Below are positions 16,205 through 26,061 of a stretch of DNA of 58,254 bases, one piece after another. The position numbers and the translations under genes are program-made. Below the pieces are notes generated by a model. It saw only the letters and a list, made by a program, of their open reading frames with translations. It did no database searches and was not told the DNA's origin. Origin of the DNA: an uncultured Anaeromyxobacter sp. (GTDB lineage Bacteria > Myxococcota > Myxococcia > Myxococcales > Anaeromyxobacteraceae); assembly GCA_903874275.1 (NCBI GenBank), contig CAIQRS010000036.1, positions 1 through 58,254 on the forward strand. The letters are read 5' to 3'. Numbering within the stretch: the first letter of the stretch is position 1; the number at the start of each line of letters is the position of its first letter.

Positions 16205-18028
16205 CTAGTAGCAGCCGCCGATGGGCGGGACGGCGTCGATCCAGTAGCGGGTCCCGCCGTGGCAGCCCACGACCGAGGTTCCCGTCCAGCCGTTCGGGCC
16301 GGCGGCGGTCGAGCTCCAGTCGGGCAGGAACGTGGCGCTCGTGTTGATCACGCCGTTCACGTGGATCGGAATCACGGCCGGCCCCACCGAACTGGCGGTA
16401 TAGCCGGCCGGGTGGCAGTGGCTGCAGGCCAGTCCCACGAGATCAGGCGAGGCGTGGAGCAGGTGCGGCGGATCCCTGGGCGGGGAAGCGTGGCAGGTCC
16501 CGCAGGACGCCTGGGTGCCGTCCACCTTGTTCCAGATCGGCGCGACGTTCGAACCCCCCGCCCCGAGCGTCTGGCCGTGGCAGTAGTTGGCGCAGGTGGA
16601 CGATGACGGGTTGAACGAGGGCGTGGCTCCGTCCGCCCTGGCCAGCGGACCCCATTCCAGGGTGGCCGGGGTCGTCGGGCCGGGCCCGACGTGCAGGAGG
16701 TTGGTCGGGACGACGTGGCACTCGGTGCAGGCCACGGGTTCGGAGATGGCGCTCGCCCCCGGCAGCAGGTGGGCCTGGTGGGCGCCGACGCCCACCTGCC
16801 TGGTGTCGGAGGAGCCGGTGCGGTCCACCGGGGGAGCGGCCATCACCTCGGGCGGCGTGCCCGGAGGCAGCACGCGGCTCGGGTCGCCGTGGCAGGCCGA
16901 GCAGCTCGTCAACAGGTTTGGAGGGTTCACGTCGGCGAGGCCGTTCACGTGGACGAGCGGGTTCACCGAGACGCGCGTGTAGCCGGTGTGGCAGAGCCCG
17001 CAGTCGGAACCCACCCCGATGGCCGGGTGCCAGGCGCTCGTGTCGGTGGTGCCGCCGGGCAGTGCGTGGCAGGTGCCGCAGGTCACGGCAGACGGCGGAT
17101 TCCAGGTCGGCGAGGTGAGGGTGCCTCCTCCGAGCGGTAGCCCGGGGCCGCCGCCGTGGCAGTAGACGTTGCTGCAGGTGACGGAGCTGCTCCCGGGAGG
17201 GGGAGGGACGAGCTGGGGAGTGGCGCCGTTCGCCGAGGCGAGGGCCCCCCAGGTCACGGTCGCCGGGGTGGAGGCGGACGGCCCGACGTGCAGGAGGTTG
17301 GTCGGGACGACGTGGCATTCCCCGCAGGCGATCGGCCCGGCGATGGCGCTCGCTCCCGGCAGCAGGTGACCCTGGTGGGCGCCGACGCCACGAAGTGCGG
17401 TGGACGAGGAGCCGGCCCGGTCGACCGGGGGCGCCGCCGTCACGACCTCCGGCGTACCCGGAGGCATCACCCGGTTCACGTCCCCGTGGCAGGCGGCACA
17501 GCTGGTCTGAATGGTCGGATGGGTGAGGTTCACCTGGCCGTTGACGTGCACGCTCCGGTTCACGGTTGCATTGGTGTATCCGGGGTGGCAGAGCGCGCAC
17601 TGGACGCCCGCCGCCACGACCGGGTGCCAGGCGCTGGTGTCGATGGGGCCGCCGGGAATGGCATGGCAGGCGCCACAGGACACGGTCGATGGCGGGTTCC
17701 AGACGGGAGCGAGGAGGGTACCCCCGCCCAGCAGGAGCTGGGGGCCACCGGAATGGCAGTAGACGTTCGAGCAGGTGAGCGACGCGCCGTTGAAGCCAGG
17801 CTGCGCGCCGTTTGCCGAGGCCAGGGAGCCTTGCAGCGTGACCTGGAATGCCGCGTCGTGGCACTGGCCGCAAGCGATGGGCTCGGCGATCGTCCCCGTC
17901 AGGTGGATCGTGTGGGCTCCCGTCGTGGGCCCGCCGCCGCCGCCGCCGCCCGAAGCGGGGCGGGATTCGCAGGAAGCGAGGCCGAGAACGGCGAGCGTGG
18001 CGAGAGCAGGGACGACGCGGGAACGCAT
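16205..18028 (-). CDS. multiheme c-type cytochrome lipoprotein, CxxxxCH/CxxCH (GSu_C4xC__C2xCH-type) repeats
   Basis: A 607-residue predicted lipoprotein (lipobox VLGLASC near residue 20, then a Ser-Gly linker). It has 14 candidate heme-attachment motifs: eleven CxxCH, two CxxxxCH (both CSNVYCH) and one CxxxCH (CANYCH). They fall into three modules of 5, 5 and 4 motifs. This mix matches the family first described in Geobacter with alternating CxxxxCH and CxxCH. Such proteins carry electrons across or outside the periplasm during metal or anaerobic respiration. The C-terminus ends in a non-heme stretch with GCHGGTRYW and a final GGCY. It is divergent from fadI. Whether all 14 sites take heme is not known. 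Confidence 0.88.
   Translation of the reverse strand: MRSRVVPALATLAVLGLASCESRPASGGGGGGGPTTGAHTIHLTGTIAEPIACGQCHDAAFQVTLQGSLASANGAQPGFNGASLTCSNVYCHSGGPQLLLGGGTLLAPVWNPPSTVSCGACHAIPGGPIDTSAWHPVVAAGVQCALCHPGYTNATVNRSVHVNGQVNLTHPTIQTSCAACHGDVNRVMPPGTPEVVTAAPPVDRAGSSSTALRGVGAHQGHLLPGASAIAGPIACGECHVVPTNLLHVGPSASTPATVTWGALASANGATPQLVPPPPGSSSVTCSNVYCHGGGPGLPLGGGTLTSPTWNPPSAVTCGTCHALPGGTTDTSAWHPAIGVGSDCGLCHTGYTRVSVNPLVHVNGLADVNPPNLLTSCSACHGDPSRVLPPGTPPEVMAAPPVDRTGSSDTRQVGVGAHQAHLLPGASAISEPVACTECHVVPTNLLHVGPGPTTPATLEWGPLARADGATPSFNPSSSTCANYCHGQTLGAGGSNVAPIWNKVDGTQASCGTCHASPPRDPPHLLHASPDLVGLACSHCHPAGYTASSVGPAVIPIHVNGVINTSATFLPDWSSTAAGPNGWTGTSVVGCHGGTRYWIDAVPPIGGCY
16684..17877 (-). repeat. two tandem 597-bp (199-codon) modules inside the multiheme gene
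   Basis: Matching blocks recur exactly 597 bp apart. A 37-nt identical stretch starts at 16684 and again at 17281. The sequence around the CSNVYCH motif (TGGCAGTAGACG on the + strand) occurs at 17157 and 17754. Each copy codes five heme motifs in the same order, and a third, shorter and more diverged copy precedes 16684. This indicates duplication of a five-heme module. Confidence 0.8.
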
Positions 18029-19600: not shown

Positions 19601-21775
19601 ATGACCACCAGTGAATGGAAGAACTACCGGGTCGATATCCAGGACGGCGTGGCCACCGTCCTCGTGGACGTGCCCGGCGAGCCGGTGAACACCCTCTCCC
19701 GGGAGACCGGCGCCGAGTTCGGCGCGGTGCTCGACGCGCTGGAGAAGGACCCGGCCGTGAAGGCCCTGGTGGTCGCCAGCGGAAAGAAGGACGGCTTCGT
19801 GGCCGGGGCCAAGATCGAGATGCTGCGCGACGTGAAGGACGCCGCCGAGGCAGCCGAGCTCTCCAGGGACGCCCAGGCCGGCTTCGACCGGCTGGAGAAG
19901 TTCGGCAAGCCCGTGGTGGCCGCGGTGCACGGGGCCTGCCTGGGCGGCGGGCTCGAGTGGGCCATGGCCTGCCACTACCGCGTGGTCTCGAACGACAAGA
20001 AGACCCAGCTCGGCCTCCCCGAGGTGCAGCTCGGCGTGATCCCCGGCGCGGGTGGGACGCAGCGCCTGCCCCGGCTGGTGGGCATCGCCACCGCGCTCGA
20101 CCTCGTCCTGGCCGGCAAGACGGTGAAGCCGAAGAAGGCGCTGGCCATCGGGCTCGTGGACGAGTCGGTGCCGCCGGCGCTCCTGCTCGAGGTCGCCCGG
20201 GCCCGGGCCCGCGCGCTGGCCGACGGCGAGAAGCTGCGCCCCGCCGCGCCAGGCGTGGTGGACCGGCTGAAGAAGGATCCCCAGGCCACGCTCCAGAAGA
20301 TGGCCCTCGAGGAGAACTTCCTGGGGCGCGAGGTGCTCTTCCGCCAGGCCAGGAAGACGCTCCTCGAGAAGACGAAGGGGCACTACCCGGCGCCGCTGGC
20401 CGCCCTCGAGGCCATCCAGGCCGGCATCGAGAAGGGGATGGAGGCCGGCCTCGCCACCGAGGCCCGCCTCTTCGGCGACCTGGCCGTCTCGCCGGTGGCC
20501 CGCGAGCTGATGGGCATCTTCTTCGCCACCACCGCCCTGAAGAAGGACAACGGGACCGCCGACCCGTCGGTGAAGGGGCGCAAGGTCGAGTCGCTGGGCA
20601 TCCTGGGCGGCGGCCTGATGGGCTCGGGCATCGCCTACGTCACCACCAACGCCGGCATCCCGGTGCGCATCCGCGAGAAGGACGACGCCGCGGTGGCCCG
20701 CGCCTTCGCGGCGGTGGCCGGGATCTACGACGGCCGGGTGAAGAAGCGCTCCTTGGACCGGCTGGAGAAGCTGGCCCGCATGCGGCTCCTCACCGCCGGC
20801 ACCGGCTGGGAGGGCATGGAGCGGGTGGACGTGCTCATCGAGGCGGTCTTCGAGGATCTCAAGCTGAAGCAGGAGATGCTGCGCACCTTCGAGACCCTGA
20901 ACCCGAAGGGCATCTTCGCCACCAACACCTCGTCCATTCCCGTCGGCGAGATCGCGGCCGCCTCCGCCCACCCCGAGACCGTGCTGGGGATGCACTACTT
21001 CTCGCCGGTGAACAAGATGCCGCTGCTCGAGGTGATCGTCACCCCGCGCACCGCCGACGAGGCCACCGCCACCGCGGTGGCGCTCGGCAAGAAGCAGGGG
21101 AAGACCGTCATCGTGGTCGGCGACGGACCGGGCTTCTTCACCAGCCGCGTGCTGGCGCCGTACATGAACGAGGCGGTGATGCTCCTCCTCGAGGGGGCCT
21201 CGGTGGAGGACCTCGACGCCGCCCTGGTGGGCTTCGGCTTCCCGGTCGGCCCGATGACCCTGCTCGACGAGGTGGGCATCGACGTGGGGGCCAAGGTGGC
21301 CAAGGTGCTCCACGGCGCCTTCGGCGAGCGCATGTCGGTGCCGGAGGCCATGGGCAAGGTGCTCGAGTCCGGGCGGCTCGGCCGCAAGAACGGCAAGGGC
21401 TTCTACACCTACGGTGATCCGAAGAAGAAGAAGGCCGTGGACGAGACCGTCTACGACGTGCTCCCGGGCGGCCGGAAGCGCAAGAGGATCGACCGGGAGG
21501 AGATCGCCCAGCGCTGCGTCCTGCAGATGGTCAACGAGTCCCTTCTCACGCTCGGTGAAGGGATCCTGCGCAGCGCGCGCGACGGGGACATCGGCGCGGT
21601 CTTCGGCCTGGGCTTCCCCCCCTTCCGCGGCGGCCCGTTCAGGTGGATCGACGCCGAGGGCAGCGCCCGGGTGCTGGAGCGCATGCGCCGCCTGGAGGGG
21701 CGCTTCGGCACCCGGTTCAGGCCGGCGCCGCTGCTGGTCGAGCACGCGGCGACCGGCAAGCCGTTCCACGGTTGA
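19601..21775 (+). CDS. fadJ: fatty acid oxidation complex alpha subunit (enoyl-CoA hydratase/3-hydroxyacyl-CoA dehydrogenase)
   Basis: A 724-residue bifunctional enzyme. Residues about 1-190 form the crotonase domain with the oxyanion-hole stretch ACLGGGLEWAMACHYR and the catalytic-Glu region LGLPEVQLGVIPGAGGTQR. From about residue 330 the NAD-binding motif LGGGLMGSGIAYVT begins the dehydrogenase domain, with the MHYFSPVNKMPLLEV catalytic-His segment. The C-terminal domain ends in GFPPFRGGPFRWID, as in FadB/FadJ. It hydrates and oxidises enoyl-CoA intermediates, working with the thiolase encoded one base upstream. Confidence 0.96.
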   Translation: MTTSEWKNYRVDIQDGVATVLVDVPGEPVNTLSRETGAEFGAVLDALEKDPAVKALVVASGKKDGFVAGAKIEMLRDVKDAAEAAELSRDAQAGFDRLEKFGKPVVAAVHGACLGGGLEWAMACHYRVVSNDKKTQLGLPEVQLGVIPGAGGTQRLPRLVGIATALDLVLAGKTVKPKKALAIGLVDESVPPALLLEVARARARALADGEKLRPAAPGVVDRLKKDPQATLQKMALEENFLGREVLFRQARKTLLEKTKGHYPAPLAALEAIQAGIEKGMEAGLATEARLFGDLAVSPVARELMGIFFATTALKKDNGTADPSVKGRKVESLGILGGGLMGSGIAYVTTNAGIPVRIREKDDAAVARAFAAVAGIYDGRVKKRSLDRLEKLARMRLLTAGTGWEGMERVDVLIEAVFEDLKLKQEMLRTFETLNPKGIFATNTSSIPVGEIAAASAHPETVLGMHYFSPVNKMPLLEVIVTPRTADEATATAVALGKKQGKTVIVVGDGPGFFTSRVLAPYMNEAVMLLLEGASVEDLDAALVGFGFPVGPMTLLDEVGIDVGAKVAKVLHGAFGERMSVPEAMGKVLESGRLGRKNGKGFYTYGDPKKKKAVDETVYDVLPGGRKRKRIDREEIAQRCVLQMVNESLLTLGEGILRSARDGDIGAVFGLGFPPFRGGPFRWIDAEGSARVLERMRRLEGRFGTRFRPAPLLVEHAATGKPFHG

Positions 21776-22243: not shown

Positions 22244-22514
22244 GCTCGCGCACATTGTGACGAAAGGTGAATGACCGCTTCGTGATCCTGTCTCAGGAGA
22301 AGCCGTATTCAAGCGGCTTCCGTGACCCCCATCGGAGTGTCCCCGACTCCAGAGGAGCGCAACCCGACAGGCTCCATCAGGGACCGACAGTCTTCTCCCC
22401 GTCCCGGATCGATCGGTGTAGTCTGCCCTTCCACGAGTTCACCTCTCAGTGAAGCACGCGACGGATTTCAGTCTCATCCGCAGTCAAGTCAGCCCCATCG
22501 AGGAGGCAGTGAAA

Positions 22515-25016
22515 ATGCGAACGTCGAAGCTCTTGACACTCTCCGTGCTGGTCGCGGCAGGCATCGGCCTGACGGCCTGTTCGGGCAGCACCGGTCCGCA
22601 GGGCACCAACGGGACCAACGGGACCAACGGGACCAACGGGACCAACGGGACCAACGGGACCAACGGGACCAACGGGACCAACGGGACCAACGGGACCAAC
22701 GGGACCCCGGGCGACACCGGCCCGCAGGGCCCCTCCGGCCCGCAGGGCCCCGCCGGCCCGCAGCTTCCGGGCGCAGGGCTCCAGATCGAGATCCTCTCCG
22801 CGACGGCCGTCTCCGGCTCCGCACCCACCGTCACCTTCATCGCCAAGGACACCGCCGGAACCGTGCTCGACTTCATCGCCGAGCTCAAGGCCGGAGCGTA
22901 CGGCACCACCCGCGGCCCACGCTTCTCGATCGTCCAGGCCCTCCCGCTGGCCGGCGCGCCTCCCTACGAGGCTGGCGTCTACAACATGAGCCTGTACCAG
23001 TCCGCCTCGGCGGGCGCCCCGTCCGGCACGCAGACCCGCCCGACGTCGGTGCCCGGCACGATCGACCTCCCCACGGCGGCCAGCTTCTACGTGGCCAACG
23101 CCGACGGCAGCGTGACCTACACCTGGCCCACCGCCGCCCCGGCGTTGCCTGCGCTCGCCGCCGGCTTCCCGTTGGGCGCGACTGCGGGCGCCCAGACCAT
23201 GATCGGCATCCAGGCCTCGCGCACCTTCGGCGGCGTGGCCTACCCGGTCGGCGCCTCCATCGAGTTCATCGCCGGCGGCGGAACGGCCGTTCCGCGCACG
23301 GTGGTGACCGACGCCGCCTGCAACGCCTGCCACGGCAACATGCAGGCCCACGGCTCGCGCCGCACGGTGGACCTCTGCCTCACCTGCCACACCCCGGGCT
23401 GGTCCACCGCCGCCTCCGCCAACACGGGCGGCAAGACGAACGCGATCGACTTCCGCGTCATGATCCACCAGATCCACGTCGGCCAGACCATGGGCTTCAA
23501 CCCCCCCTGGGTCTACAAGTGGAGCGCCACCGTGGACTTCAGCAACGTGATGTTCGCGCCGCCCAACTCGGTCAAGAACTGCACGCAGTGCCACGCCGGT
23601 GGCGCGCAGGCCGACTTCTACAAGTCCAACCCCACGGCGGCCGTCTGCGCCTCCTGCCACGTCTCCCACCCGGGGACGTCCGGCGCCTTCCCGCCGGACG
23701 CGGAATGCATCCTCTGCCACAAGCCTGACACCAACAGCCTCGCCCCGGCCACCGGGCTGGTCCACTCGCCGCTCTACAACGCCGCGACGAACACCACCTT
23801 CGTGGGCAAGACCCTCGCCATCACCATCGACTCGGTGAACGTCACCACCCAGACGGCCGCCACGGTCACCTTCACCGTGAAGGTGGATGGCGCCGCCTAC
23901 GACATCAAGGCCACCCCGCTCGCCTCGCTCGCCTTCACCATCGCCGGCCCGACGACCGACTACGGCGCGGACGTGGTCGGCGGCGTTCCGTTCAACTGGT
24001 ACGCCAACTCCGGCGGCTACATCCAGGCTCCTGCCACCGGCGGCGGCGCCGCGGCGGGGGTCGTGGCCACGGGAACGGCTGGCCAGTTCCGGGCCCCGCT
24101 CGGTGACCTGTCCAAGCTGAACGGCTTCTCGATGGGCGTGGGCGCAGAGGCCTACATCAACGAGACCGGAACCTGCCAACCGGCCGGCGGGTGCACCGCG
24201 TCCACGAAGGCGTGGACGTCGAATCCGATCACGATGAAGTACGTCAAGGTCGGCACCGGCACCGCCGTCAACCGCCGAACCATGACCAGCAACGTAAAGT
24301 GCAACGCCTGCCACGAGGACCTCGGCTTCCACAGCAACTCGGCGCGCAAGACCCCGGAGTACTGCGCGACCTGCCACAACCCCCAGAACGTGAACGACGA
24401 GCGCACCTCGCAGTTCCGGGTGATCCCCGGCACGACGACGCCGTTCAACAAGCTGCCGCACACGGTCGAGCTCTCCGTGATGGTCCACAAGATCCACATG
24501 GGAAGCGCGCTCGCGAACGAGTACTGCATCGGCGCGACCCGTGACTTCCGGCCCGAAACGGGCGTGAAGATCGCCGGCGAGGCGCCGCCGGTCTGCTTCA
24601 CGGGTGCCTACCCTGGCGACATCAAGAACTGCCAGGCCTGCCACGTGGCGGGTGGCTACAACCTGCCTCCGGCGACGGCGATCCCGACCCGGTTCGTGGA
24701 CTTCACCTGCACGCAGGCGGTTGATCCGACCATCCCGGCCCCCGTCTACGCGAACGTCTGCGGTGCCTCCGGCACGGCGACCGTTCCCTGGGGCGGTGGC
24801 GTAACCGTCCCCGACTCCGCGAATGGCGACGCCTTCTGGGCCAAGACCGAGTCGTTCGTCCAGTCCGGAGCCGCGAGCTGCGGCAGCTGCCACGACACCA
24901 CCGCCGCTCGAGTCCACTTCGCCACCATGACGATCGGGACCGACGAGGCCTGCGCCAGCTGCCACGGCGCCGGCAAGGTGTTCAACGCGATCGACGTCCA
25001 CGTCCCGTCGCCGTAA
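22515..25016 (+). CDS. decaheme c-type cytochrome lipoprotein, OmcA/MtrC family, with collagen-like N-terminal tract
   Basis: An 833-residue surface-electron-transfer cytochrome. ATG 22515 is chosen because AGGAGG lies 8 bases upstream and a lipoprotein signal follows (lipobox GLTAC, Cys22); a GTG at 22449 would bury the signal. Residues 30-62 are eleven Gly-Thr-Asn triplets, continued by [21 protein letters not shown], a collagen-like Gly-X-Y tract to about residue 85. Ten CxxCH motifs lie between residues 269 and 817 (CNACH, CLTCH, CTQCH, CASCH, CILCH, CNACH, CATCH, CQACH, CGSCH, CASCH), the count of the OmcA/MtrC family. These reduce extracellular metals or partners. No porin (MtrB) or periplasmic MtrA homologue is adjacent. 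A two-component system follows. Confidence 0.92.
22602..22700 (+). repeat. perfect 9-bp tandem repeat encoding Gly-Thr-Asn
   Basis: Eleven consecutive Gly-Thr-Asn codon triplets. The first is GGCACCAAC; the next ten (22611-22700) are identical GGGACCAAC units with no synonymous change. Perfect identity at DNA level points to recent slippage expansion. Each unit is in frame, so copy-number change would lengthen or shorten the collagen-like stalk without breaking the protein. Confidence 0.97.
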
Positions 25017-25032
25017 GCGGGATCGACGCGCA

Positions 25033-25117
25033 GGGCCCCGCGTAGCTCGCGGGTCCCGATGAATCGCCGGGCTCCCGGCGCCTTCCGAGGCGCCGCGGGG
25101 CCCGGTTCCTTTTCCGG
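25033..25117 (+). terminator. nested stem-loop with T-rich tail after the decaheme cytochrome gene
   Basis: The outer stem GGGCCCCGCG (25033-25042) pairs perfectly with CGCGGGGCCC (25094-25103). Inside it GGCGCCT (25077-25083) pairs with AGGCGCC (25088-25094) around a TCCG tetraloop; the two stems share base 25094, so they are alternatives or stack. A T-rich stretch TTCCTTTTCC follows at about 25106. It starts 17 bases after the stop codon and separates the cytochrome from the kinase gene. Confidence 0.55.
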
Positions 25118-25158
25118 CCTCCCGCGCCGCGCCCTCCCGGCCGCGTTACACTGGCCCC

Positions 25159-26061
25159 GTGAAGCTCCGGCGCGTCTACCCGCTCATCATCGGCCTCGTG
25201 GTCGTCCCGGCGGCCATGATGCTCACGGTGGGCATCCTCATGCTGGTCTTCGGGCGCCAGAAGCAGGACTACGTCTTCGGCACCCTCATCCTGGCGCTGG
25301 TCGCCACCACCATCCTCGGCACCATCGGCACGCTGGTGGTGCTCTACCGCGAGGCCTACGTCTCGCGGCTCCAGACCGACTTCGTGAACAAGGTCTCCCA
25401 CGACCTGCGCACGCCCCTCACCAGCATCCGCATGTTCGTCGAGACCCTCCAGCTCGGGCGCATCGCCGACCCGGCCCAGGAGAAGGAGGCGCTCGAGATC
25501 ATCTCGGCCGAGACCCAGCGCCTCTCGGTGCTCATCGCGCGCCTCCTCGACTGGGCGCGCATGGAGTCGGGGAAGCGCAGCTACGACTTCCGCCGCCAGC
25601 CGCTCGGCCCCATCGTGGACGACGCGCTCCGCGCCGTGGAGCCGCAGCGCATCCAGACCGGCGCCGTGGTGCGCCGCGACCTCCCCGAGGGGCTGCCCCA
25701 GGTCTACGCCGATCGCGACGCCCTGGCCGACTCCCTGGTGGACCTGCTCCAGAACGCCTTCAAGTACACCGGCGACGACAAGCGCATCTCCATCTCCGCC
25801 GAGGGCTCGGGGAACGCGGTGGCGATCGTGGTGGCGGACAACGGCCCGGGCATCCCCGGTTCCGACCAGAAGCGCATCTTCGACAAGTTCTACCGGGGCA
25901 AGGACCCCCTCGAGCGCACCATCGAGGGGAGCGGTCTCGGGCTCTCCATGGTGAAGCACGTGGTGCAGGCCCACGGCGGGAGGGTCGGCGTGAAGAGCGA
26001 GCTGGGCAAGGGAGCGGCCTTCACGGTGCTGCTCCCCGCGTCGGAGGCGCGCAAGCCATGA
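25159..26061 (+). CDS. membrane sensor histidine kinase with minimal sensor region
   Basis: A 300-residue kinase. Two membrane helices occupy about residues 8-30 and 41-62, with a loop of only about ten residues between them, so there is no extracellular ligand domain and sensing is likely within the membrane or through a partner. The HisKA box VSHDLRTPLTS carries the phospho-acceptor His81. The ATPase domain shows N-box LLQNAFKYTGD, G1 DNGPGIP, F-box DKFYRG and G2 GSGLGLSM. Translation starts at GTG 25159. The stop overlaps the response regulator start in an ATGA, so this is a cognate pair, encoded just after a cytochrome gene. Confidence 0.92.
   Translation: MKLRRVYPLIIGLVVVPAAMMLTVGILMLVFGRQKQDYVFGTLILALVATTILGTIGTLVVLYREAYVSRLQTDFVNKVSHDLRTPLTSIRMFVETLQLGRIADPAQEKEALEIISAETQRLSVLIARLLDWARMESGKRSYDFRRQPLGPIVDDALRAVEPQRIQTGAVVRRDLPEGLPQVYADRDALADSLVDLLQNAFKYTGDDKRISISAEGSGNAVAIVVADNGPGIPGSDQKRIFDKFYRGKDPLERTIEGSGLGLSMVKHVVQAHGGRVGVKSELGKGAAFTVLLPASEARKP

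Follow-up and report, generated by a model that had tools for sequence, protein, structure and literature searches.

A collagen-like Gly-X-Y stalk behind the lipid anchor of an Anaeromyxobacter decaheme cytochrome: a candidate spacer for interchangeable heme bodies

Research on extracellular electron transfer has yet to settle how cytochromes outside the cell are anchored and grouped at its surface. The window analysed here, the whole stretch of 58,254 nucleotides from an uncultured Anaeromyxobacter sp. (contig CAIQRS010000036.1), raises this question in a specific form: what does a collagen-like run of Gly-X-Y triplets do between the lipid anchor and the heme body of a decaheme cytochrome? 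Our best reading is that it forms a spacer at the membrane whose heme cargo can be exchanged; a triple helix is possible. The gene and its parts are arranged as follows:

22515–25016, + strand: gene for an OmcA/MtrC-family decaheme lipoprotein cytochrome, 833 aa (TIGR03507, ten CxxCH, Foldseek)
22515–22580, + strand: signal peptide and lipobox (LTAC, residues 19–22), with the codon of the lipidated Cys22 at 22578–22580 (sequence inspection; leader common to three congeners)
22584–22763, + strand: Gly-X-Y stalk, residues 24–83, 20 in-phase triplets (Pfam Collagen; shuffles)
23319–24965, + strand: heme-binding region with the ten CxxCH motifs (motif count; family-alignment columns)

The open reading frame begins with an ATG, with a GAGGAGG ribosome-binding sequence close on its 5′ side; a scan for promoters and terminators found nothing. 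Its product is a member of the OmcA/MtrC family. It scores 286.7 bits against the NCBIfam model TIGR03507 (cut-off 209.3) and has a Pfam match to MtrC/MtrF domain II/IV, and all ten CxxCH motifs fall in invariant or nearly invariant columns of family alignments. An AlphaFold2 model, built as a single chain from an alignment of 40 family members, is of moderate confidence (pTM 0.63, mean pLDDT 65, with residues 22–86 below 50); it shows a four-domain fold, and its significant Foldseek matches are to OmcA, MtrC, UndA and MtrF only. Because one chain was modelled, the model gives no verdict on trimerisation, and the low pLDDT of residues 22–86 is expected either way. The family identity, the lipidated Cys22 (read from the lipobox by inspection) and the ten CxxCH motifs following the tract, all put forward in a preliminary description of this DNA, are thereby upheld. 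We infer an outer-membrane surface location, a spacer role and electron transfer for this decaheme cytochrome.

The stalk begins at Cys+2 and reads GST, GPQ, (GTN)11 and then further triplets, uninterrupted over 60 residues. Pfam Collagen matches it with 35.7 bits (cut-off 27.2), confirming the collagen-like tract that had been proposed directly behind Cys22; the eleven GTN triplets had also been counted correctly, whereas the in-phase total is 20 rather than about 18. Pro occupies the X position in 6 of the 20 triplets and is absent from X throughout the GTN core. Chance is excluded as the origin of this run, since the longest in-phase Gly-X-Y run in 5000 shuffles of the protein was 7, against the 20 observed. 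N-glycosylation of the NGT sequons within (GTN)11 was likewise considered and dropped, as a search of the genome found no STT3/PglB-type oligosaccharyltransferase.

At the DNA level, the core of the stalk is a tandem repeat:

22605–22706, + strand: perfect 9-bp tandem repeat ACCAACGGG, 11.3 copies, encoding (GTN)11 (Tandem Repeats Finder, 100% matches)
22484–22909 (− strand), 22446–25001 (− strand) and 22609–22710 (+ strand): long ORFs in other frames over the repeat, which look like GC-rich repeat artefacts

Ten successive identical 9-mers occur in the GTN core, and the longest such run in the other compared tracts is three. Since (GTN)11 is a perfect 9-bp array, the core has expanded recently by slippage; as judged from the compared sequences, the tract is old and its present length in this protein is young. 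In other frames the same repeat reads as collagen-like GPV on the − strand and GPT on the + strand. A collagen reading in the wrong frame or on the wrong strand was rejected, these other-frame matches being by-products of the 9-bp repeat.

We sampled 147 family members belonging to several phyla; roughly two thirds have an uninterrupted tract, mostly of 5–17 triplets, in the corresponding position. Most OmcA/MtrC proteins of the Anaeromyxobacteraceae have a Gly-X-Y run behind the lipobox; loci from named Anaeromyxobacter genomes are near-copies of proteins of the relatives compared, which makes this the probable taxonomic family of the window. Because sequences were collected by similarity, these proportions should not be read as real frequencies. 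A scan of 84,980 species genomes added 80 further loci, many of them gammaproteobacterial, deltaproteobacterial or myxobacterial. Among the 117 members bearing a lipobox, at least 5 triplets are found in 76, at least 8 in 60 and at least 10 in 46, and the tract starts exactly at Cys+2 in 62; 0.4% of shuffled N-termini reach at least 5 triplets. Of 30 proteins sampled from the order that includes Thalassotalea, 22 likewise reach at least 5 triplets; one OmcA-like and one MtrF-like protein are among these. Deposited chains carry a short version: GGSDGKDGEDGKPG in OmcA, GGSDGKDGEDGKPG in UndA, CGGSDGDDGSPGEPG in MtrF, and CGGSDGNDGNPGEPG or GGSDGNNGNDGSDG in MtrC. About one third of the sampled members have no tract, and these often show poly-Gly or Pro-rich stretches at the same place. 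At several gammaproteobacterial loci, including L086 and L147, stalked cytochromes with 10–11 triplets lie near MtrB/PioB porin genes, so that longer stalks occur in apparent Mtr conduits too.

The stalk is, as far as these collections indicate, widespread rather than unique. The family search that the preliminary description had suggested thus found Gly-X-Y tracts family-wide, and not the absence from all close relatives that it had named as speaking against its view. Its statement that no OmcA/MtrC protein with such a stalk was known does not stand at the level of sequence, given the short tracts of Shewanella OmcA, MtrC, UndA and MtrF, but does stand for the open-access literature, searched for work linking collagen with OmcA, with the cytochromes of Anaeromyxobacter or with extracellular electron transfer, in which the tract is undescribed.

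The glycine register of these tracts is strictly kept. In 74 distinct tracts comprising 756 triplets we counted two interior Gly breaks, whereas X changes between neighbouring triplets in 55% of pairs and Y in 69%, and the encoding DNA differs in 85 of 121 neighbouring triplets that are identical in protein. Since the 74 tracts had been picked as long runs, which favours few breaks, they were recounted under a looser entry rule that asks for three in-phase Gly only; the resulting 92 tracts contain a single clean case of a break with resumption and three that are less clear. Slippage alone would not hold glycine in phase as X, Y and codons change, and the register looks constrained by selection across the family. 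Pro stands at X in 39% and at Y in 18% of the triplets of the 74 tracts, and Thr is often at Y. Bacterial collagens show the same preferences, with Pro favoured at X and Thr often at Y (PMC8968730).

The gene itself occupies a slot between two conserved neighbours, and a comparison with relatives bears on the relation of stalk to cargo:

19601–21775, + strand: fadB, the upstream neighbour, kept at the slot in relatives (ORF; conserved in relatives)
25159–26061, + strand: PnpS/PhoR-like histidine kinase, the downstream neighbour, kept at the slot (NCBIfam PnpS, 202.6 bits, below the cut-off of 400)
up to 26753: response regulator, after the kinase
22694–25152, no strand: stretch that differs between congeners, comprising the rest of the stalk, the heme body and the downstream gap (blastn, four congeneric loci)

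In three congeneric genomes the flanks of the slot share 88–91% nucleotide identity, and the upstream region, signal peptide and stalk start share 76–77% with the window. DNA homology, as followed by blastn, then ends inside the stalk (about 22693–22724; the repeats of the stalk blur this 5′ edge) and is picked up again 7 nt ahead of the kinase start. The proteins encoded in the slot of the congeners have 29–34% amino-acid identity to the 833-aa protein, and two of them share 64% with each other. Extending the survey to 16 other genomes of the Anaeromyxobacteraceae with both neighbours in view, we found that 14 encode a Gly-X-Y-stalked multiheme lipoprotein cytochrome between fadB and the kinase; no stalked cytochrome lies between these neighbours in the remaining two, G013 and G016. 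A stalked multiheme cytochrome also adjoins the kinase in G009, where fadB lies beyond the stretch read. Most slot bodies carry ten hemes, those of G008, G009 and G014 and of an additional gene in G003 carry nine, and the slot gene is inverted in G006, G015 and G017.

In a tree of the decaheme bodies alone (a quick method, with some long branches), the slot members are polyphyletic with at least eight label changes, and hence do not form one orthologous line. Rapid divergence of a single slot orthologue is disfavoured, as the bodies fall in different supported clades and some are nonaheme. The simplest reading is that the heme body has been replaced behind a constant leader, and the point at which homology ends suggests recombination at the Gly-X-Y repeat as the route of exchange.

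The assembly, 98.9% complete, contains no TIGR03509 match that would mark an MtrB/PioB porin, and several related myxobacterial genomes likewise have none; the same model scores over its cut-off in five gammaproteobacterial genomes, and most genomes of that class tested have such a porin. An MtrA-like model finds a diverged multiheme match below its cut-off. About 4.5 kb upstream of the gene, a second multiheme protein with CxxxxCH/CxxCH domains is encoded at 16205–18028 (− strand), with TIGR01904 over cut-off. Elsewhere in the genome, one non-heme lipoprotein (L059, G000:C118) has 17 triplets directly behind its lipobox, and another (L056) also has a Gly-X-Y tract. Next to the decaheme gene of G003 lies another (L184, 1112–4204), which encodes a nonaheme lipoprotein of distinct type that also bears a Gly-X-Y stalk.

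We lean towards the reading that, in this lipid-anchored OmcA/MtrC-type decaheme cytochrome, the Gly-X-Y tract is an extended spacer from Cys to heme body. Such a spacer would keep the heme body off the membrane, from where electrons could pass to external acceptors or partner cytochromes. It would represent a family module with a strictly kept Gly register, the core of which has here been lengthened recently by 9-bp slippage, and leader and stalk together would make a constant anchor at this locus, one that has received different heme bodies in relatives. This is favoured by family and fold, by a location immediately after the lipobox in most of the members sampled, by the perfect 9-bp array of the core, by the slot with its conserved flanks and leader but differing, polyphyletic bodies, by the poly-Gly and Pro-rich linkers that replace the tract where Gly-X-Y is missing, and by the recurrence of the same design on the non-heme L059 and nonaheme L184 lipoproteins. 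The third of sampled members that have no tract counts against it, as does the lack of a TIGR03509 match in the genome for an MtrB-type porin that would bring electrons to the protein. Moreover, a merely flexible linker would not require a glycine in each triplet with so few interruptions, and this speaks for a stricter structural role. A true collagen triple helix, in which three identical or paralogous cytochrome chains would form a trimer on a stiff rod of at most about 17 nm (60 residues at 2.9 Å), is a possible though doubtful alternative; the extracellular conductive bundles that the preliminary description derived from such a trimer are hypothetical. The scarcity of Gly breaks under both entry rules while X and Y vary, the excess of Pro at X over Y as in bacterial collagens, and the Pfam Collagen match over cut-off all speak for it. 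However, the tract has 60 residues with an 11-triplet GTN core devoid of Pro and charge, whereas hydroxyproline-free bacterial collagen segments of 75–237 residues melt at 23.5–35.6 °C and draw their stability from Pro at X and charge (PMC7824840). In addition, MtrC was autobuilt only from residue 45, its short tract lying outside the model, with one molecule per asymmetric unit (PMC4486940), and in the MtrCAB crystal MtrC is one chain on one MtrAB (PMC7198977). The poly-Gly found in place of the tract in some members also argues against a helix. In host-guest peptides Thr is a weak residue at X, as is Asn at Y, and the GTN core seems poorly suited to helix formation.

Two further explanations set both spacing and trimerisation aside. 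In the first, the stalk would be a by-product of slippage under little or no selection, an unstable GC-rich repeat that is simply tolerated where it lies, with anchor on one side and body on the other. This would agree with the perfect 9-bp array of the core and its ten identical 9-mers, against at most three in other tracts; we nevertheless hold it to be very improbable, as the Gly phase is kept family-wide despite the drift of X, Y and codons, and many distant members also have the tract at Cys+2. Least credible to us is a sorting or export tether, a tract whose main task would be to bring the lipoprotein to the cell surface: a start at Cys+2 in most members having a tract, and its recurrence behind the lipobox of non-heme and nonaheme lipoproteins, would suit such a tether, but about a third of the sampled members do without it. 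Returning to the helix, we consider unlikely the bolder proposal that a collagen triple helix at the lipid anchor trimerises surface decaheme cytochromes in several phyla, with the Anaeromyxobacter-type leader and stalk serving as a fixed socket at the fadB/two-component locus into which bodies are swapped by Gly-X-Y recombination.

With the spacer as the preferred reading, what goes beyond the earlier observation is the constrained register across the family and a heme body that seems exchangeable at a conserved locus. A widespread tract with a constrained Gly register, found in short form even in OmcA, MtrC, UndA and MtrF, opens reach and oligomerisation to direct tests. The slot between fadB and the kinase, where the leader is constant and the heme bodies differ, offers natural swap experiments on body function.

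Set against known systems, the protein differs from an MtrCAB-type conduit in that the MtrB/PioB porin gene was not found in its genome with TIGR03509. With Scl1/Scl2, Lcl and other Pfam Collagen proteins it shares an uninterrupted Gly-X-Y tract in which Pro is favoured at X; compared with Scl1/Scl2 and Lcl, however, the tract is much shorter and scores very low against the Scl/Lcl equivalog models, the cargo is heme, a lipid anchor stands instead of LPXTG, and the helix is putative. The Gly-X-Y lipoproteins of the same lineage, L059 and L184, have the same order of lipobox and then directly 10–17 triplets, with a different cargo. The closest likeness is to OmcA, MtrC, MtrF and UndA, which share the lipobox, the fold and a short Gly-X-Y tract behind the lipobox; the ten CxxCH motifs match those of OmcA, MtrC and MtrF, whereas UndA has eleven. 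The heme body is 17–18% identical to these four in fold alignment, and its stalk runs to 20 triplets where theirs have about 4–6.
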